From the NCBI RefSeq assembly GCF_014652655.1, contig NZ_BMZF01000012.1:1-43431 (forward strand): 43,431 nucleotides of DNA, read 5' to 3'. The translations under genes were made by a program, and so were the position numbers. Below, piece after piece: positions 6,657 through 40,666 of this stretch; position 1 is the stretch's first letter, and every line of letters starts with the position of its first letter. The stretch is from Paramylibacter ulvae. Lineage in GTDB: Bacteria; Pseudomonadota; Alphaproteobacteria; Rhodobacterales; Rhodobacteraceae. The notes below the pieces were generated by a model. That model was not told where the DNA came from and ran no database searches. It saw only the letters and a program-made list of their open reading frames with translations.

Positions 6657-7751
6657 TTAATCGTCAAGCGCATCCAACATCTGTGCCACGGCTGCTTCCA
6701 ATTTCAAACGATCCATCGCGGAAAAATCTTTGGGCAATCGAATTTCCAATCGCCCCGATGATGCCGTACATTTTGCGGCACCTTCAGCGCGGGATAATTG
6801 AAATGTTGTCTTGGCAACCCGCGCCTTTTTCGTGACAGGTTGTTTATCTTCGGTGGCATTTTTTGAATCACCCCCCTGCCCCGCATAACGGCGCAGCACG
6901 TCCAATTCAGCCGCGGATTTGCGCCCCAGTCGCGGCCCCAAATCCGCCTTGATCGCATTTGCCATCCAATCCTTGGATTGGATTTCCTTTAACACCGCAA
7001 TCCCCAATGCGCGTGGAATATCCTGTGGAAAAATCAACGCATCACCCAAAGCATCCAACAGAGAAATGAAATTGCGGATATAACTGCGCCGCGCATAATT
7101 CGCCGATGAAAACAACTCTGCTACGGCCTTGTTCGGATCGTTCTGCGGCGTGTCCGGGTCGGCGGCGTAACGCATCGCAAGCTGTGCCATTTCAGCAAAT
7201 GAAATATCCTTGCGGATCATATTTTCATCCACCATCTGGCGATACAAACCTTCTAGCGAATTACCCTGTGCCTGAACCGATGCAGGAATGCGCCCATAGG
7301 TTTGCGCATCATCCGTATCGCTCAACAATGCGCGATACGCGCTCAGGCGACGATAGCCTTGGATCAGTTCAAAACGCCCCTGCCCCGTTGGTTCAACCTT
7401 GATCGGATTGGACAGACCAATTTGGCTGATCGATGTTTTCAGCTCGTCCAATTCAGGATCGGCACCATCTGCCCGATCACGGGTTAATTTATCGGTATCG
7501 ATCAGGTGCAACTCTATCTGTTCAACAATGAGGCCCTGTTTTTTCATGCGCACATGTTCATGTGCAAGCGCATCATTTTCTGCACGTATCGCTGCCTCTG
7601 TGTCGGCGCGTTCGCGATTGCTCGCAGCATTTTCATTGATCGCCGTTGCCATTGGGCCGCGTCGATTTTTTGATGGCGTCGGTGTTTCAACCACAGGTGG
7701 CAAATCATCTGTGGGCATTTCAATGTCAAACATTCTGCGCTTCTTGCTCAT
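6657..7751 (-). CDS. parB: ParB/RepB-type plasmid partition protein
   Basis: ParB binds parS sites, loads onto DNA and stimulates the ParA ATPase to segregate plasmid copies. The 364-residue protein has the ParB/Spo0J nuclease-like core: LDELKTSISQIGLSNPIKVEP, the box GRFELIQGYRRLSAYRAL, and an ENMIRKDISFAEMAQLA start of the helix-turn-helix region. The C-terminal ~60 residues form a basic-then-amphipathic tail suited to dimerisation (FSAMDRLKLEAAVAQML). Its start overlaps the parA stop by four bases (ATGA), so parA and parB form one coupled operon. Length and organisation match the partition modules linked to DnaA-like replicases in Rhodobacterales plasmids. Confidence 0.93.
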   Translation of the reverse strand: MSKKRRMFDIEMPTDDLPPVVETPTPSKNRRGPMATAINENAASNRERADTEAAIRAENDALAHEHVRMKKQGLIVEQIELHLIDTDKLTRDRADGADPELDELKTSISQIGLSNPIKVEPTGQGRFELIQGYRRLSAYRALLSDTDDAQTYGRIPASVQAQGNSLEGLYRQMVDENMIRKDISFAEMAQLAMRYAADPDTPQNDPNKAVAELFSSANYARRSYIRNFISLLDALGDALIFPQDIPRALGIAVLKEIQSKDWMANAIKADLGPRLGRKSAAELDVLRRYAGQGGDSKNATEDKQPVTKKARVAKTTFQLSRAEGAAKCTASSGRLEIRLPKDFSAMDRLKLEAAVAQMLDALDD

Positions 7752-9055
7752 GCTTCATCCTCCAATTTCTGCCACGCGGCCAGAAAGGTTTCTTTGAATT
7801 CGTCGTAGGCCAAATCAAAACTGCCGCGCGCGCGCCGCCATGTGTCACGCGTCATGTCGCGGTAATCAATTTCGTAAATCGAGCTGAGGAATCGGCTTGA
7901 TTGTTCTACCGCGCGGGTCATTTCGATTGGGTTGTCGGTTAATCTATCCCCAAAAACCTTTCGAAATGCTTCTACCATCGCACGGTGCAAATCATTGCTT
8001 GGCTCGTATCGTGTCACCAAAAAGCGGATGTCTTGGAATACCTTGGGCAATGAAACCTTCCCCGCGGGGAAGGTTTGTTCAAACCCAGCGCTGAGATCTT
8101 CCAACGCTTCTGCAAGCTGTCCGATGAAGCTGGTGGTGCTGTCATATTCCCAATAGCCAGGGCCAGATGGAATATACAAAAGGTCCGCCGCAAACACAGC
8201 ATTCATGGATTGATAGCCAATCGCAGGCGGGCAATCGAAAATAATCAAATCATACGCATCATCAGGCAACGCATCCAAATAACGGCTAACCGCGGCAAAG
8301 AATGACCATTCGGGATTCATATGACGATATTGCGCCGAGGCAAATTCCACAAAGGCTGCATTGGCACAGGACGGCACAATATCAATTGTGGACCATGCGG
8401 TTGGCTTGATGAAATCATTGACGCGCAAATCACCCAAACCCATATCGGTGATCGCTGCAGGAATGCGGCGTTGGGGCAGGGCGGTTCCGCTTTCGGCGCC
8501 CACCGCAGCGGCATTTTGACGGTTGGTTTCGCGCTCCAAGTCACGCGCCATAATGCCCCAAACGGTGTGATCTTCAGAGACATTCGTGAGCCCCATTGAA
8601 TGGCTTAGTGTAGCTTGTGGATCAAAATCAACGGCCAACACACGGTATCCATCAAGGGCGGCGGCATGTGCAAAATGAAGTGCAACGGTTGATTTTCCAG
8701 CACCCCCTTTGAAATTCGCAATCGCGCAGCGCACCGCACGTTTTCCCGCAGGGCGTTCTGGCATCATGCTTTGGCGGTTCACCTTCATCTTGCGGCGCAG
8801 CTCGTTCACCTCTTCCAAAGTATACCAGCGCTGGCGGCCATCTTCTTCGACCAAGCCTGCAGGCAAGGTCGGGTCACTGGCCAAACGTCCGCGAAAGGTG
8901 GATTGGTTAATTTTAAGGATCAGGCTCGCCACTTCCCAACTTGAAAAACGACGCAGCTTTTTATCCATTTCAGGGCTGAACGTCTGTTGACGGATCCAGT
9001 TTTGCATCTTTAATGAATTGGCTTGAAGCTCGCTTAAATCTTGGTGCGTGAACAT
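7748..9055 (-). CDS. parA: ParA/RepA-type plasmid partition ATPase
   Basis: This is a 435-residue ParA with an N-terminal DNA-binding region (about residues 30-95, FSSWEVASLILKINQSTF, then RQRWYTLEEVNELRRK) that should repress its own operon. The deviant Walker A motif is KGGAGKST at about residues 114-121, the A' motif is VLAVDFDPQATLS, and Walker B is DLIIFDCPPAIG. The enzyme drives partition by forming an ATP-dependent gradient on the nucleoid. The ATG at 9055 is followed by MFTHQDLSELQ, common for this group. The 3' part contains a perfect 24-bp palindrome (8053-8076) that adds an in-frame TFPAGKVS segment at about residues 327-334 and looks inserted between two family-typical blocks. Confidence 0.94.
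   Translation of the reverse strand: MFTHQDLSELQANSLKMQNWIRQQTFSPEMDKKLRRFSSWEVASLILKINQSTFRGRLASDPTLPAGLVEEDGRQRWYTLEEVNELRRKMKVNRQSMMPERPAGKRAVRCAIANFKGGAGKSTVALHFAHAAALDGYRVLAVDFDPQATLSHSMGLTNVSEDHTVWGIMARDLERETNRQNAAAVGAESGTALPQRRIPAAITDMGLGDLRVNDFIKPTAWSTIDIVPSCANAAFVEFASAQYRHMNPEWSFFAAVSRYLDALPDDAYDLIIFDCPPAIGYQSMNAVFAADLLYIPSGPGYWEYDSTTSFIGQLAEALEDLSAGFEQTFPAGKVSLPKVFQDIRFLVTRYEPSNDLHRAMVEAFRKVFGDRLTDNPIEMTRAVEQSSRFLSSIYEIDYRDMTRDTWRRARGSFDLAYDEFKETFLAAWQKLEDEA
8053..8076. repeat. Perfect 24-bp palindrome inside parA (copy 1)
   Basis: Bases 8053-8064 are the exact reverse complement of 8065-8076; the core is CCCCGCGGGG. It is read in frame as part of ParA. Copy 2 lies 1.4 kb away right after parB (6633-6656). 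Having one copy inside coding sequence suggests either a partition site embedded in the operon or a palindromic element that inserted in frame. Confidence 0.85.
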
Positions 9056-35397: not shown

Positions 35398-36549
35398 ATG
35401 TCCGAGTTGAAAATCCAATGCCCGAAGTGCTCTAACGAAATTGAGTTGACCGAACAATTGGCTGGCCCGATGCTGGCCGACCTCAGGGCGTCTTTCAACG
35501 ATGAGCTTGCCAAACAAGAAGCGCAAGCGACGAAGGCGCTCGCCGCCGCGCAGGCGCAGGCCAAGGAAACGGCCAAAGCTGAAACTGCAGCAGAACAGGC
35601 CGCCCTTGAGGAACGCGTCAAAGCACAGGATGAAAAGCTGCGCGAGGCTCAAAAGGCTCAAGCTGCAGCGCTAAAACGTGAACAAGAGCTCAAGGACAAG
35701 GAGGCTGAGATGGAGCTGACCTTGCAAAAGATGCTCGCTGCGGAACGTCCAGCACTAGCTGAAAAGCTAACCCGCGAGGCGAATGAAAAGGCTGAACTGA
35801 AACTCGCAGAACAAGAGCAAGTCATGCAAGGCATGAAACGTCAAATCGCGGCGCTGAAACAGAAATCTGAACAAGGCTCGATGCAGACCCAAGGTGAGGC
35901 AGCCGAGATCGTATTGGAAGAAACCCTCGGTGCGGCCTTTCCGTTGGATGCCTTCGTGCCCGTTGCCAGAGGCGTTAGCGGTGCGGATGTGCGCCAGGAC
36001 GTGACCGCATCGGGTGGCATTGCCGGCAGTATCCTATGGGAAAGCAAACGGACCAAGAACTGGACCGCGGGCTGGCTGGCCAAACTGCGTGATGACCAGC
36101 GTGCATCGGGATGTGAGGCGGCTGTGATAACCTCCCAAGCTTTGCCCGAGGGAATTGACGGTTTCGGCATGGTTGACGGTATTTGGGTTTGTGCGCCCCG
36201 CTATGCAGTCCCGCTGGCGTCGTCCTTACGCCAAGGTCTGATCGACGTGGCAAACGCCAAGGGACGCGCTATGGGACAGGAAACCAAGATGGAAATGATT
36301 TATGATTACCTGACCGGAACGCAATTCAAACAGCGTGTCGATGCGATCGTCGAACGCTTCGAAGACATGCAGGACAACCTGCGCAAGGAACGCGTCTTTA
36401 TCGAAAAGCAATGGGCTCTGCGTGCCAAACAGATTGATCTGGTGATCGCATCAACGGTTGGGATGCACGGTGATTTGCAGGGGATCGCTGGCCGGTCGAT
36501 GCCTGAAATCGAAAGCGTTGAAGCGTTGTCGATCGGGAAGGATGACTGA
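35398..36549 (+). CDS. DUF2130 protein: zinc-finger-like start, coiled coil and nuclease-like C-terminal domain
   Basis: The 383-residue protein begins with a short CPKCSNEIEL knuckle. A long Ala/Glu/Lys-rich coiled coil follows (about residues 25-155), then the DUF2130 domain. In that domain GADVRQDVTASGGIAGSIL followed by WESKRTKNW gives a D...E-x-K pattern consistent with a PD-(D/E)XK-type nuclease fold, next to DDQRASGCEAAVITSQALP. A second coiled segment near 305-345 follows. Function is not established; nuclease activity is an inference. It lies alone behind its own operator between the 319-aa gene and rtcR, in a defence setting. Roughly 195 bp without a gene follow. Confidence 0.82.
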   Translation: MSELKIQCPKCSNEIELTEQLAGPMLADLRASFNDELAKQEAQATKALAAAQAQAKETAKAETAAEQAALEERVKAQDEKLREAQKAQAAALKREQELKDKEAEMELTLQKMLAAERPALAEKLTREANEKAELKLAEQEQVMQGMKRQIAALKQKSEQGSMQTQGEAAEIVLEETLGAAFPLDAFVPVARGVSGADVRQDVTASGGIAGSILWESKRTKNWTAGWLAKLRDDQRASGCEAAVITSQALPEGIDGFGMVDGIWVCAPRYAVPLASSLRQGLIDVANAKGRAMGQETKMEMIYDYLTGTQFKQRVDAIVERFEDMQDNLRKERVFIEKQWALRAKQIDLVIASTVGMHGDLQGIAGRSMPEIESVEALSIGKDD

Positions 36550-36744
36550 GGGTGGTAAATGCTCTGCAAAACGGCAGGCGAGGCTCTTCGACAGGCGGAA
36601 GGGCCCTTCGCTTCAAAAGCCTAAGCTCGTCAAGTGGGTTAGTGAAACACTAGCTTATTCGAATGTCCGCAATGCGGGCTGCAACTGCAGCATTGGGTCA
36701 TCGTGTCCAATGTCGATTAAGGGCCGTTCGTATTTATCGTAATA

Positions 36745-38316
36745 TTAAAGTCGAATATCAGCCCAAGATAATTCAAACCTATCCAAGTATTTTCGCAATC
36801 TGTCCGCATCATTTTTACTCTTCTTCTCTGCACGCGAAGCCGCAAAAAGTGTGCGCCCAGCTTCGCTCAGCGTTTGAGACGAGCTGCATGTTCTTATTAC
36901 GTTAGCCAACTGCGGAATATCAAAGGGGTCAACCTTATCTATATTTGGCCCTAAGAATTCAGACAGTAGTTTCTGATCAGGGTCCTGGACAGCGTCCCGC
37001 CATTGTTTTTTGAGAACTGAAATTTCATCCTCCACCATCGAAACCGTAATTCGTCCCCGAGCAGCGAATGTACAGAGCCGTTGGATGGATGCCCCGAGAT
37101 CTCTGAAGTTACCGGGCCACGGTGTTGCAGGGTTTTTGGCAAACCGCAGGTAAGCATCGGACGCATCCTTGTTAAAGCCAACGCGCCCACCCAATGTTTT
37201 CTCCGCGCGGCCAAGTTCGCATTCTATATTTGCCTGAATATCCTCGCGCCGTTCCCGAAGCAAAGGAAGTGATACCGTCCAAAGATTTAATCGCGAATAG
37301 AGGTCGGCTCGAAACTTGCCTTCGGCAACCAGTTTGGCCAAATCCCTGTTCGCCCCCGCCAGCAGTTGAAAGTTCACTTTGATCTCATGATCCGAACCCA
37401 ATGGATAGAATGAACCTGTCTCGACGGCATGTAGAATGGTTGCTTGATCATCGAGGCTTAGTTGATCGATTTCATCCAGAAATAAAACGCCGCCATCTGC
37501 TTCGCGCAGCAAACCCTTGCGATCTTGCCCACCACTTCCCAATGCAGCGCGGCGATACCCAAAAAGAGCGGACATGCCTTGTTCGCCTTTTAGGGTCGAA
37601 CAGTTGATGTGAATAAATCGACCTTTGACCATTCTGCGCTGCCGCTTGAGGTCATAAATTCGAGAAGCAAGATGCGATTTTCCTGTACCTGTGGCACCAA
37701 CCAAAAGAATGGGCGCATTTGACGAGGTCGCAATATTTTCCACTTTTTCGATTAGAGCATTGAAAACTTGGTTTTCAGTTTTTATCCCACCCTTTAACAG
37801 AGCGTTAGATTCAGCAGTCACTAAGTCAAAACGCTGTTGAAGCGCATCGTACCGACTTAAATCAAGATCGATGATTTGGATCGAGCCGTTTACGCCATCC
37901 TCTTCTGTAGGGGGTGAGGTTTGCAGCAGCCGCGCCGGAACATGACGAGATTCAGTCAAAAGAAACCAACAAATTTGTGCTACGTGTGTACCAGTGGTCA
38001 GGTGAACGTGATAACGCTCTCTGTCTTCGTCAAATCCATAGCCTTGTGCGAAATCAAACAGGGCGCCGTAAACCTCTTGGAAATCCCAAGGATCAGATAG
38101 ATCGACTTGGCGTAGAATAATTTCAGTTTCTGGAGCTAAGGCTTCGATGTCACGCTTTACGGATTTAGCCAATCGAGTGAATTTACGATCGTGAAGTAGT
38201 TCCAAGCGATCGACATCGAAATCTTCTTGCAGACATATGGATACAGATGGGCGCCATTTGCGACGTTTCCCCATATCTAACTGCGTTCCAAGGAATCCAA
38301 TTACAACGTTTCTCAT
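36745..38316 (-). CDS. rtcR: RtcR-like AAA+ regulator with CARF-type sensor, lacking the GAFTGA loop
   Basis: RtcR senses damaged RNA ends through its N-terminal CARF-like domain and turns on the RNA repair genes. The 523-residue protein follows E. coli RtcR from start (VVIGFLGTQLD) to end (NDADRLRKYLDRFELSW). The sensor domain has the VHLTTGTHVAQICWFLL block. The AAA+ domain has Walker A LVGATGTGKSHLA (about residue 205) and Walker B GVLFLDEIDQL. The sigma-54 contact loop, GAFTGA in normal activators, is AALGSG here (residues 257-262, codons at 37531-37548), though flanking sequence aligns fully. The C-terminal helix-turn-helix region is short. It is divergent from the tRNA-rtcB unit, with a 268-bp gap. 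Confidence 0.92.
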   Translation of the reverse strand: MRNVVIGFLGTQLDMGKRRKWRPSVSICLQEDFDVDRLELLHDRKFTRLAKSVKRDIEALAPETEIILRQVDLSDPWDFQEVYGALFDFAQGYGFDEDRERYHVHLTTGTHVAQICWFLLTESRHVPARLLQTSPPTEEDGVNGSIQIIDLDLSRYDALQQRFDLVTAESNALLKGGIKTENQVFNALIEKVENIATSSNAPILLVGATGTGKSHLASRIYDLKRQRRMVKGRFIHINCSTLKGEQGMSALFGYRRAALGSGGQDRKGLLREADGGVLFLDEIDQLSLDDQATILHAVETGSFYPLGSDHEIKVNFQLLAGANRDLAKLVAEGKFRADLYSRLNLWTVSLPLLRERREDIQANIECELGRAEKTLGGRVGFNKDASDAYLRFAKNPATPWPGNFRDLGASIQRLCTFAARGRITVSMVEDEISVLKKQWRDAVQDPDQKLLSEFLGPNIDKVDPFDIPQLANVIRTCSSSQTLSEAGRTLFAASRAEKKSKNDADRLRKYLDRFELSWADIRL

Positions 38317-38524
38317 ATAAGTATATTATTTCGGATAAAAGCGTATATCAATAGATATAATTATTCGATCACGAATTCACTAAAACATGATTTAATTTTT
38401 TAAATACAGTTACTTAATGAATTTTAAAATTTTCTTTGGAACGTCGCAAGTGTTCCGTCATCTTAATCCTACACAAAAGAGAGAAGCAAAGGAGCAAACA
38501 AATCCGTGTTTGCAAAGACAGACA
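38317..38524. promoter_or_regulatory. AT-rich control region between rtcR and the tRNA-rtcB unit
   Basis: The gap is very AT-rich next to rtcR and includes AATTTTAAAATT, a 12-bp palindrome. An inverted repeat GGAAC (38438-38442) / GTTCC (38452-38456) with a 9-base spacer may be a regulator site. TTTGGAACG there resembles a sigma-54 -24 box, but the matching -12 TTGC is missing at the correct spacing. No firm promoter can be named. Confidence 0.4.
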
Positions 38525-38573
38525 GATCGATGCAGGCCCTGATGCCCATATCCTTCGGGGTTTTGCATCGATC
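38525..38573 (+). ncRNA. Long hairpin in the leader just upstream of the tRNA
   Basis: GATCGATGCA (38525-38534) pairs perfectly with TGCATCGATC (38564-38573). The stem extends inward with G-U pairs and CCC/GGG across one bulge. It ends 11 bases before the tRNA 5' end. It may be a processing signal, a regulatory leader of the tRNA-rtcB transcript or a small structured RNA. It does not look like an intrinsic terminator because no U-tract follows. Confidence 0.55.
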
Positions 38574-38584
38574 ACCATAAATAT

Positions 38585-38660
38585 TCGACCGTAGCTCAGA
38601 TGGTAGAGCAGCCGACTGTTAATCGGCGCGCCGCAGGTTCGAGTCCCGCCGGTCGAGCCA
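38585..38660 (+). tRNA. tRNA-Asn (anticodon GUU)
   Basis: A full 76-nt cloverleaf with encoded CCA. The acceptor stem is TCGACCG/CGGTCGA with discriminator G; the D arm is GCTC/GAGC with G18G19. The anticodon stem GCCGA/TCGGC surrounds loop CTGTTAA (GTT at 38618-38620), the variable loop has 5 nt, and the T loop is TTCGAGT. The T stem GCAGG/CCCGC has one A-C mismatch at pair 51-63. The U1-A72 pair and G73 fit tRNA-Asn. It lies on the same strand as rtcB, which starts 34 bases after the CCA, and so probably shares a transcript with it. Confidence 0.93.
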
Positions 38661-38694
38661 AATTCGAAAAGCTGCAATAGGCCAGCGACGAAAG

Positions 38695-40122
38695 ATGAAG
38701 AGTAAGAAAATGACGACCATTGACGAAACTAAACACATTGTAACTGGAAAAGATCTGATTGCATGGGGCCATCGCCCTGGACCTGAATTTGCATCGCTAC
38801 TGGAAAAAGCGAACTGCGCAGTGAGCGAAGGTGCTTCCATTGATGCCGTTCAAAAACAACTTGAACTGTTTATTGTGCCGATGCCTGATCATCTTCCCTT
38901 ACATCCTGATGGTAAGATTCCTTATCATATGAACATTGATGTTTCTGAAGACGATGAACTGGACAATGTGGAAAAGGTCAAATTGACCATGAATGCGGTT
39001 ATGCGCACGCCCACCATTGTTGGTGGTGCAGTGATGCCGGATGCCTGTCCTGCGGGTCCAATCGGTACCATCCCAGTAGGCGGTGTGGTTGCAGCAAAGA
39101 ATGCTATCCATCCTGGAATGCACTCTGCAGATATTTGTTGTTCAGTAATGTTCACCGATCTCGGTGACGCTGACCCAAAGACCGTTCTGGATGCAGCTCA
39201 CTCAGTTACCCATTTTGGGCCTGGTGGACGTCGCAATGGACAGCGTTTTACGACTTCGTTGAAGTTGCTTGATGCGTTTCGTGAAAACCGTTTCCTTAGG
39301 GGCCCTCGTACGATGCGCATGGCGCAAGAACATATGGGCACACAAGGTGATGGTAACCACTTCTTGTTTGTTGGGCGGTCGCGTAAAACGGGCCGTACAG
39401 CAATGGTGACCCATCATGGTTCGCGTGGCCCAGGTGCGATGCTCTACAAAGAAGGCATGATCGTTGCGGAAAAGTTTCGTCGTGAATTGTCTCCTAAGAC
39501 ATTGAAGCAGAACGCTTGGATTCCAGCTGATACCCTTGAAGGTGTTGCATATTGGGAAGCTTTGCAATTGATCCGTAAATGGACCAAGGCAAATCATAAC
39601 GCGATCCATCAAGCGACGCTTGAAGTTGCCAAAGCACAAATGGGTGATCGTTTCTGGAATGAGCATAACTTTGTGTTCAAACGCGATGATATTTATCTTC
39701 ATGGTAAGGGTGCTACCCCCGCTTGGGATGGATATGCATCCGATGCATCGGGTCTAACACTTGTTCCGTTAAACATGTCGGAACCTGTGCTGGTCGTAAA
39801 AGGTTCAGATGCTGGTCACGCGCTGGGATTCGCTCCGCACGGCGCAGGACGAAACTATTCTCGCTCTGAGCATCGTCGTCGTATGGGTTCTGCTACAGCC
39901 GAAGATTTGTTGATCGCAGAAACCAAAGGTCTGGATATCCGCTTCCATGCCGGTCCGATTGATCCGTCGGAACTACCTTCCAGCTACAAAAAAGCTGAGA
40001 CGGTTGTTTCGCAAATCAGCAAATTCGAGCTTGCTGATATTGAGGATTATATCGACCCTTACGGCTGCATTATGGCTGGTGATGTTCCACCGCCTTGGTT
40101 GAACAGAAAAAAGCGTAAATGA
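38695..40122 (+). CDS. rtcB: RtcB RNA ligase
   Basis: RtcB joins RNA 2',3'-cyclic phosphate or 3'-phosphate ends to 5'-OH ends, using GTP and Mn(II), and repairs tRNAs cut by anticodon nucleases. The 475-residue protein has the metal-site Asp/Cys in HSADICCSVM (Asp146, Cys149), the His of GDGNHFLFVG (222), HHGSRGPGAML, and the guanylylated His in HGAGRNYSRSEHRR (382). The ATG at 38695 has a poor ribosome site; the second ATG at 38710, with GAAGAG eight bases before it, is a real alternative. No RtcA, archease or PrfH gene follows. The gene is preceded by a tRNA-Asn and faces an RtcR-like regulator. Confidence 0.95.
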   Translation: MKSKKMTTIDETKHIVTGKDLIAWGHRPGPEFASLLEKANCAVSEGASIDAVQKQLELFIVPMPDHLPLHPDGKIPYHMNIDVSEDDELDNVEKVKLTMNAVMRTPTIVGGAVMPDACPAGPIGTIPVGGVVAAKNAIHPGMHSADICCSVMFTDLGDADPKTVLDAAHSVTHFGPGGRRNGQRFTTSLKLLDAFRENRFLRGPRTMRMAQEHMGTQGDGNHFLFVGRSRKTGRTAMVTHHGSRGPGAMLYKEGMIVAEKFRRELSPKTLKQNAWIPADTLEGVAYWEALQLIRKWTKANHNAIHQATLEVAKAQMGDRFWNEHNFVFKRDDIYLHGKGATPAWDGYASDASGLTLVPLNMSEPVLVVKGSDAGHALGFAPHGAGRNYSRSEHRRRMGSATAEDLLIAETKGLDIRFHAGPIDPSELPSSYKKAETVVSQISKFELADIEDYIDPYGCIMAGDVPPPWLNRKKRK

Positions 40123-40136
40123 CGTAGATAAAACTG

Positions 40137-40158
40137 ACCATGGCTCACGGGCCGTGGT
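40137..40158 (+). terminator. Hairpin after rtcB
   Basis: ACCATGGC (40137-40144) pairs with GCCGTGGT (40151-40158), one pair being G-U, around a 6-base loop, 14 bases after the rtcB stop. The following TACCGTTTATAT is only weakly U-rich. Confidence 0.6.
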
Positions 40159-40321
40159 TACCGTTTATATACAGCGGCAGCTAATGGTGCTTTCGGAAAC
40201 TGTCAAAACTCAGATGTATTTCTATTTAAAGGCAGCTTTGGGCCGAAACTTCGGTTTAATGTCCATGAAAAATACTGAATTATGCGTTTAGATTACGAAT
40301 TGCAGAAATCCATGGGGACGA

Positions 40322-40666
40322 TTACTCACTCTTCTTTTTCAATACATGCAGTGTCATAAGGCCCAGTGCCGAGAGCGACCTTTGTTCAGCTACCTCAAGG
40401 TCAGGTTACTGAAGCACTGAGCGAATTCCAAAGTCAGAATGCCAGCCCAACAGATTGGAAAACGGTGCGGTAAGTCGCTCGATCCGAGAAAGTATACCCG
40501 TTTCTCTGGCAAAATGGTTGGTGATAACGAACAGACCGTCAGGTTTACAGACCCGCGCCATTTCTTCCATGACCCTCCCAGGTTCCGGTACAACTGAAAT
40601 AATATGCATCGCAGCCACGACGTCGAATGATGCATCGGGAAATCCACCAACATGGCAGCGCATCAC
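40322..40666 (-). pseudogene. Remnant of phosphatidylethanolamine N-methyltransferase (PmtA) with an internal stop
   Basis: The reading has the PmtA core: FPDASFDVVAAMHIISVVPE, VMEEMARVCKPDGLFVITNH, then GWHSDFGIRSVLQ. A TAA at 40406-40408 interrupts it, after which the same frame resumes PDLEVAEQRSLSALGLMTLH and ends naturally at 40322. The N-terminal SAM-binding half is missing beyond about 40690. It is a chromosome-derived scrap, inactive by both truncation and the nonsense codon, that separates the RNA-repair cassette from the TTT operon. Confidence 0.85.

Follow-up and report, generated by a model that had tools for sequence, protein, structure and literature searches.

RtcB and RtcR have been studied as an RNA-repair system, a ligase and its regulator, whose bacterial substrates are unsettled. 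In Escherichia coli and Salmonella, rtcR, which encodes a protein with CARF and AAA+ domains, lies divergently beside rtcBA. Here we analyse a locus of this type that holds a tRNA-Asn(GUU) gene between a divergent rtcR variant and rtcB in Paramylibacter ulvae (Rhodobacteraceae; RefSeq assembly GCF_014652655.1, contig NZ_BMZF01000012.1, positions 1 to 43,431 of the forward strand; this whole stretch of 43,431 nucleotides is termed the window). The window shares the divergent gene pair with the E. coli and Salmonella systems, but its RtcR lacks the GAFTGA motif, the region lacks a -24/-12 consensus, rtcA is missing among the neighbours scanned and a tRNA occupies the gap.

Three other described systems bear comparison, each source being drawn on here in part. 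The rsr-yrlBA-rtcBA operon (PMC7790460) resembles 51 of 80 loci related to that of the window, which carry an rsr-like gene and in many cases Y RNAs between rtcR and rtcB; the window keeps the nucleotides of the first rsr codons but has neither rsr nor a Y RNA match, and the related operons are interspersed with real tRNA genes. In Pelobacter carbinolicus, the mutant tRNA-Asn Pcar_R0061 lies between rtcR and slipin-rtcA-rtcB and was proposed to be a substrate or guide (PMC3543383). It is likewise derived from tRNA-Asn, with a divergent rtcR on one side and a set of genes containing rtcA and rtcB on the other, but has a CAG anticodon, an altered U33 and a CCA inside the acceptor stem, whereas the anticodon, U33 and CCA are intact in the window; the portion of that source used here describes a single genome. 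In Anabaena, the trn tRNA operon and rtcB are de-repressed through TrcR under translation stress (PMC10272220). These are again extra plasmid tRNAs that are co-regulated with rtcB and switched on by translation stress, but, according to the same partial source, TrcR is unrelated to RtcR, the operon has 26 genes and rtcB lies at a separate chromosomal site. The Pelobacter tRNA is the one precedent that we found. Our literature search, which did not cover the likeliest works, returned no report of the wider association of RtcR with tRNAs or of Y RNA–tRNA pairs, and their novelty is provisional.

The tRNA-Asn gene and its flanking genes

ARAGORN, Rfam and Pfam analyses confirmed the arrangement that an earlier sequence-only reading of this DNA had proposed: a complete tRNA-Asn(GUU) gene with an encoded CCA, located 34 nt upstream of the rtcB start on the same strand and opposite to rtcR (coordinates in Table 1). 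The gene is 76 nt long and scores 61.9 bits against the Rfam tRNA model (gathering threshold, 29); inspection by eye gave a complete cloverleaf with a GUU anticodon, U33, G73 and CCA. The host genome contains 36 tRNA matches, the window copy among them, and one other tRNA-Asn gene (ARAGORN; C1:74300), which is alike at 55 of 76 positions (79% identity in the part aligned by BLAST). Given that the housekeeping tRNA-Asn has a full-length match of 97–100% in 44 of 61 genomes of the family, the window gene is a diverged extra copy and not the sole tRNA-Asn of its host.

The rtcB product matched PF01139 (112 bits) and a solved RtcB (E = 2e-8), and the alignment to the latter retains GNHF, HxGSRG and HGAGR, which we take to be catalytic stretches; ligase activity is predicted. 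The divergent gene encodes an RtcR by both PF06956 (257.5 bits, E = 6.9e-77) and the PADLOC model RtcR CARF-AAA-HTH (768 bits). The absence of GAFTGA that had been read from the sequence was confirmed by these matches and the aligned motif (Table 1), but the suggested covariation of this loss with the presence of a tRNA was not borne out. GAFTGA occurred in none of the 91 RtcR-bearing loci of a first set (aligned RtcR; the window enters three times, and some loci belong to both the family and the named group), tRNA present or not, whereas the 45 RtcRs read from a wider set (L223–L230 excluded) had GAFTGA (38), GAYTGA (6) or GAFAGA (1), the 16 tRNA-bearing loci of that set among them. Loss of GAFTGA tracks the clade, not the tRNA.

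tRNA and Y RNA genes in other rtc loci

The related loci are the best 80 of at least 560 RtcB relatives from a scan of genome contigs and come mostly from Rhodobacterales. A protein of a Ro60-like cluster (rsr; one member scored 30 bits for TROVE and 47 bits for vWA_Ro60 in Pfam) is encoded upstream of rtcB in 51 of them; 20 have rtcR but no rsr, and nine are stretches without rtcR. ARAGORN identified 45 tRNA genes (hereafter, island tRNAs) upstream of rtcB and on its strand in 27 of the 80 loci, three longer calls that looked like Y RNAs (L066, L081 and L106) having been dropped before counting. A tRNA upstream of rtcB thus recurs, as the sequence-only reading had expected, and does so in further families as well (see below), but mostly at more than the 200 bp from rtcB that it had envisaged. 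Nor is the tRNA always Asn: 17 of the 45 are Asn, and Gln, Lys and Pro account for nine each, with one unassigned. Nearly all tRNA-bearing loci (26 of 27) have rsr, and rtcR is visible beyond the tRNAs in 25 of 27, the contig ending first in L066 and L075. Where rtcR and rtcB are both visible, the interval separating them contains no tRNA on the minus strand. L342, L343 and L344 are additional loci with the same arrangement.

The island tRNAs are closely associated with Y RNAs. A Y RNA pattern built from Rfam YrlA matches and sequences gave 173 matches in the upstream gaps (172 kb, overlaps counted) against none in the rest (1.78 Mb, strands summed); Rfam YrlA itself gave 10 matches in 7 of the 11 loci scanned. 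Thirty-two of the 45 tRNAs begin no more than 25 nt from a Y RNA, compared with a mean of 7.5 and a maximum of 16 in 1,000 trials of random placement scored on Y RNAs alone, and five others start within 25 nt of another tRNA. The remaining eight stand apart (L052, L064, L071, two in L074, L075, L079 and L090), although in L090 the sequence shows a YrlA, missed by the pattern, that ends 4 nt 5' of the tRNA. For a given tRNA species, the distance that separates the tRNA from the end of its Y pattern hardly varies—9 nt in seven of nine Lys genes and 15–16 nt in 10 of 17 Asn genes. A gene for Tpt1/KptA RNA 2'-phosphotransferase, a second RNA-repair enzyme, separates the tRNAs or Y RNAs from rtcB at L067:5359-6027 (checked) and in five more loci.

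Bases such as 73 and the pair 1–72 are charging determinants of these tRNAs. Among the genes that bear CCA, each of the 17 Asn genes (window included) has G73 and U1–A72, and 16 of them have an acceptor stem that is paired at all seven positions; the letters of the acceptor and anticodon stems vary by locus while pairing is preserved. The Gln genes have U1–A72 in nine of nine and G73 in eight of nine, and the Pro genes have A73 in nine of nine and C1–G72 in eight of nine. From these features, the island tRNAs look usable. Island and host Pro(UGG) share 58–60% identity (five values), and a tRNA tree recovered clades of island Pro and of island Lys without L052 (support of 84 and 98, respectively), with no clean clades for Asn and Gln.

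The window appears to retain a trace of rsr. In related loci, rsr starts with ATGGCAAACAAATCCGTGTTTGC or a close variant, and the window has GCAAACAAATCCGTGTTTGC, in which the start codon is missing. Codons 2–8 of rsr are nearly invariant as DNA and form a stem-loop with an AATCCG loop (upstream regions L035–L112). A stem-loop of this type (Element A) was found in 55 of 71 upstream regions, window included, 53 of which have it 178–189 nt from the rtcR start; 139 of 5,000 control windows drawn contained one. Because 13 of the 21 regions without rsr (again including the window) retain it, in some cases with different stems such as CGGATG/CATCCG or GCAGGCA/TGCCTGC, this leader element seems to have outlived rsr. 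Element A is an rsr relic and probably a leader element, and the stem-loop at the rsr start may possibly act as a regulatory RNA or an operator. Neither PF05731 nor the L058 rsr protein (the latter searched without a control genome) matched anywhere in the host genome G000; the Y RNA family RF02553 was unmatched in 36500-40400 at E = 10, and the Y pattern has no match in the window. The locus therefore looks like a reduced cassette from which rsr and the Y RNAs have gone and the first-codon stem-loop is left.

We also surveyed RtcR beyond the family. PF06956 matched 27 of the 398 genomes surveyed from the phylum, 13 of 369 from one class and 24 of 293 from an order belonging to that class (we infer that class and order are gammaproteobacterial). 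The resulting wide set comprises 53 RtcR loci outside the family (L228 is short; G711 and G1032 were omitted, with rtcR at the contig edge). Seventeen family loci (L206–L222, some of them the same contigs as among the 80) were kept out of it, and 7 of these 17 have operon-strand tRNAs. In the wide set, 36 tRNA or tRNA-like genes share the strand of the operon and lie to the rtcB side, in 16 of 53 loci from eight families; the opposite strand has three genes, in two loci (sign test, P = 0.0013, relatedness ignored). Rfam recovered 32 of the 36. The tRNAs of L185 and L232 lie 2–4 kb past rtcB, and their operon membership is uncertain. Ordinary tRNAs include a Pro gene in L197 and arrays in L232 and L250. 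In L250, RtcR adjoins six tRNAs and a GOLLD RNA, downstream of TTGGCACGAGCCCTGCA; apart from rtcR, no open reading frame (ORF) of more than 306 amino acids, and so no intact rtcB, occurs within the 8.6 kb covered. About ten further wide-set loci had no rtcB match to the window RtcB query, which means little because this query is diverged. The GOLLD RNA (L250:2667-3130; Rfam E = 7.6e-49) overlaps a tRNA-Ile call within the array, and a stretch resembling an HNH endonuclease accompanies the array past rtcB in L185 (L185:2050-4700; by eye). The gene table of the Anabaena TrcR study likewise lists an HNH endonuclease gene (PMC10272220, in the part drawn on).

Judged by adjacency and strand statistics, the tRNA appears to belong to an RtcR/RtcB unit, as had been proposed, and does not look like a chance neighbour, subject to the sampling caveat given below. 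The recurrence of tRNAs beside RtcR suggests that cells may mend broken tRNAs and, at the same time, make fresh ones or decoys. Across Pseudomonadota, it is conceivable, and we put it forward tentatively, that RtcR responds to the cutting of tRNAs by switching on tRNA and tRNA-like genes together with repair enzymes, in a repair-or-replace programme. Its cargo would extend from a lone tRNA next to Y RNAs to arrays of at least six, once alongside GOLLD RNA and without an intact rtcB close by. Should tRNAs prove to be frequent in RtcR operons, the operon would indicate which of the cell's tRNAs are under threat (Asn, Gln, Lys and Pro in loci of the Rhodobacterales type).

Possible roles of the window tRNA

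The reading that we prefer, at somewhat short of even chances, is that the window tRNA-Asn is accessory cargo of an RtcR-controlled RNA-repair unit that serves both repair and refill. The induction, co-transcription, processing, charging and function that we infer would run as follows. Cleaved tRNAs ending in a 2',3'-cyclic phosphate would activate RtcR, as reported for the Salmonella protein, and a promoter between rtcR and the tRNA would yield one transcript that spans the leader, the tRNA and rtcB. Excision of the tRNA by RNase P and 3'-end nucleases would also free the rtcB message; RtcB would reseal broken tRNAs while the operon supplied fresh tRNA-Asn. The cassette looks like a slimmed-down form of the rsr–Y RNA–tRNA–rtcB operon found in related bacteria, minus rsr and the Y RNAs. 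Binding of cut-tRNA fragments by RtcR (PMC7790460, in part), taken with the content of these operons, points to a regulator that senses cut tRNAs and turns on a ligase and tRNAs. Refill is favoured in the clade of the window because the charging features are kept there.

Several observations weigh against this reading. The 20 other loci that have rtcR but lack rsr are all without a tRNA. RtcB of this kind occurs in 2 of 33 genomes of the window's genus, and the congeneric locus, L346, lacks both a tRNA and a match to rsr and has a single Y pattern directly 5' of rtcB (in L072, from Amylibacter marinus and taken to be the same locus, an rsr stub and a Y RNA were seen by eye); a tRNA and a tRNA-mimicking Y RNA therefore occupy one slot in sister loci. 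The window tRNA has a single flaw, an A51–C63 mismatch in the T stem, and an anticodon loop identical to that of the housekeeping tRNA-Asn, so that nothing in the copy points to its resisting an anticodon nuclease. The island Lys genes have A73 in seven of nine and a C2–A71 mismatch in eight of nine, and this mismatch and T73 may hinder charging. Outside the family, ten tRNA-likes in nine loci have A-first anticodons (AAG, AAU, AGA, AGU, ACU or AGG; L182, L185, L186, two in L198, L234, L237, L239, L242 and L243), kinds that are unusual in bacteria. One order in the wide set was chosen for sampling after the pattern had been seen in one of its members (11 of 20 loci tRNA-bearing, compared with 5 of 33 in the earlier sample). 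The origin of the window tRNA is also ambiguous. Its nearest relative by pairwise identity in the compared set, the L052 island gene (87%), reads Lys(UUU), and the two pair in the tRNA tree, in which the island Asn genes do not form one clade and deep support is weak. Among 390 genomes of its own order, the window tRNA had seven non-self matches that reached E = 1e-12: four in rtc loci (L342 in G1429, L343 in G1337, L344 in G1392 and the L214 stretch in G171), two lone tRNA-Asn genes of another genus (G1375 and G1460; 86% over 72 nt) and one tRNA-Lys. Descent from the island lineage is possible, although the lone genes weaken the case for it.

The C2–A71 mismatch is shared by the Lys genes of L042, L044, L048, L049, L053, L054, L100 and L105, and T73 is found in L053 and L052. 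A match to Plastid-ycf2 on the strand opposite the tRNA was below threshold and was discarded.

Both the spare copy and the decoy that the sequence-only reading had entertained are still in contention, the latter as the less probable. In the decoy model, an anticodon nuclease would bind or cut the window tRNA, and similarly the Y RNAs and odd tRNA-likes of other RtcR loci, and the cell's own pool would be spared. This is favoured at loci with odd tRNA-likes: tandem copies with non-standard anticodon loops lie 3' of TGGCAC-type sequences in L182, L186 and L198, Pro(AGG)-like copies occur in L239, L242 and L243, and the Pelobacter copy has a changed U33 (PMC3543383, in part). The Y RNA in the tRNA slot of the congeneric locus also fits, as does the suggestion that the tRNA-like domain of YrlA is a possible competitive inhibitor, but the same source, in the part drawn on, found YrlA uncut (PMC7790460), and loci of the Rhodobacterales type keep charging-identity bases and standard anticodons that a decoy would not need. 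For the window tRNA we consider a decoy role unlikely.

Somewhat more doubtful is a processing module, in which the tRNA would mark a site for RNase P/RNase Z cutting, so that the Y RNA ahead of it is trimmed at its 3' end and the rtcB message is set free; in the window the tRNA would persist as a leftover of this role. The placement of most island tRNAs next to an upstream Y RNA, far above random, and their near-constant spacing per species argue for such a role, but any tRNA would then do and just four amino-acid species are represented among the 44 assigned tRNAs; moreover, the window has no Y RNA. A processing role can explain the tight Y RNA–tRNA spacing and is compatible with either refill or decoy, and the pairs suggest a way in which bacterial Y RNAs may be trimmed.

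We regard it as improbable that the tRNA-Asn is placed by chance, copied or inserted by plasmid recombination and unconnected with rtcB. This would agree with the tRNA-free state of the other rsr-less rtcR loci and the differing congeneric locus, with tRNAs of nearly equal similarity away from rtc genes in another genus and with a phage-integrase-family gene 8 kb away, but not with the same-strand recurrence in other families and the adjacency statistics. The sequence-only reading had tied chance placement to several findings together, of which one was made—close homologous loci lack the tRNA—and another was not, the window gene being complete, CCA-ended and no copy of the host tRNA-Asn. Least probable is that cleavage of the window tRNA itself yields a 5' half that activates RtcR, as the binding of cyclic-phosphate tRNA 5' fragments by the RtcR CARF domain (PMC7790460, in part) and the position next to the regulator gene might suggest, since housekeeping tRNAs already supply such fragments (same source) and no tRNA was called in 53 of 80 related and 37 of 53 wide-set loci.

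Leader, promoter and plasmid setting

Table 1. Features of the rtcR–rtcB region of the window
Feature	Position	Strand	Basis or remark
rtcR variant	36745..38316	-	CARF-type RtcR domain and AAA+; PF06956, PF00158, PADLOC RtcR; RRAALGSGG replaces GAFTGA
Candidate RtcR operator half-sites, TATATC-AATA-GATATA	38344..38359		Near rtcR start; by eye
Stem-loop Element A, GCAAACA-AATCCG-TGTTTGC	38494..38513	+	Letters correspond to rsr codons 2-8 in many relatives
Stable leader hairpin	38525..38573	+	Folding energy compared with shuffles
tRNA-Asn(GUU), encoded CCA, U1-A72, G73	38585..38660	+	ARAGORN; Rfam RF00005; genome-wide tRNA list
rtcB, RNA ligase, diverged RtcB branch	38695..40122	+	PF01139; match to solved RtcB

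The hairpin that had been noticed upstream of the tRNA is real: the segment 38520-38584 folds at -27.7 kcal/mol (z = -5.3), and none of 200 shuffles was equally stable. It is not tied to the tRNA, given that similar hairpins were seen by eye in loci that have neither tRNA nor rsr. In the rsr-less leaders of L036, L041, L073, L076, L084, L086, L088, L089, L091 and L112, a hairpin with a loop resembling CCCATT or GTATT follows the stem-loop, and several of these leaders show CCCC/GGGG pairing around the rtcB ribosome-binding site (both by eye).

A sigma54 promoter was rejected for the window and its relatives, because the strict -24/-12 pattern occurs in none of 71 upstream regions and a loose one in five, with neither in the window. 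Rhodobacter NtrC, which lacks GAFTGA, reportedly works with sigma70, and this analogy suggests that the GAFTGA-less RtcRs might act in the same way. Inverted repeats resembling the candidate half-sites (ACGATA...TATCGTA) were seen by eye, without statistics, in several short intergenic regions. Two other operator candidates were discarded: the palindrome GGAAC-N9-GTTCC upstream of the leader (38438-38456) is present at that place in none of 70 other upstream regions (L085 has a shorter-spaced one elsewhere), and a set of conserved 8-mers proved to be the start of rsr.

PADLOC identified GajA and GajB among the neighbours, as expected from the Gabija genes that had been recognized in the sequence; the surroundings also include the integrase-family gene and a DUF2130 gene. 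Proximity to GajA/GajB does not by itself demonstrate the anti-anticodon-nuclease role that the sequence-only reading had suggested. Among the flanking ORFs scanned with Pfam (DUF2130, an unmatched ORF, TctC and TctB), rtcA was absent, the remainder of the genome not having been searched. The proposed plasmid origin is supported by ParA/ParB-type genes at 6657-9055 and by the same 127 bases at both contig ends (1-127 and 43305-43431), as expected for a 43304-base circular plasmid; the window is probably the whole of it, with a TctA-type gene spanning the junction. When the intergenic region was used as a DNA query against plasmids, the best 30 of 146 records matched over the tRNA part only. 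Rhizobium accounts for 48 of 55 records of plasmid-borne RtcB relatives (about 52% among the matches listed). Viral contigs with RtcB have some tRNA in 16 of 80 loci, a count that we did not use as evidence because phages in general carry tRNAs. On one viral contig (L326:4823-4976), a tandem tRNA-Phe pair ends 24 nt 5' of the rtcB match on the same strand.

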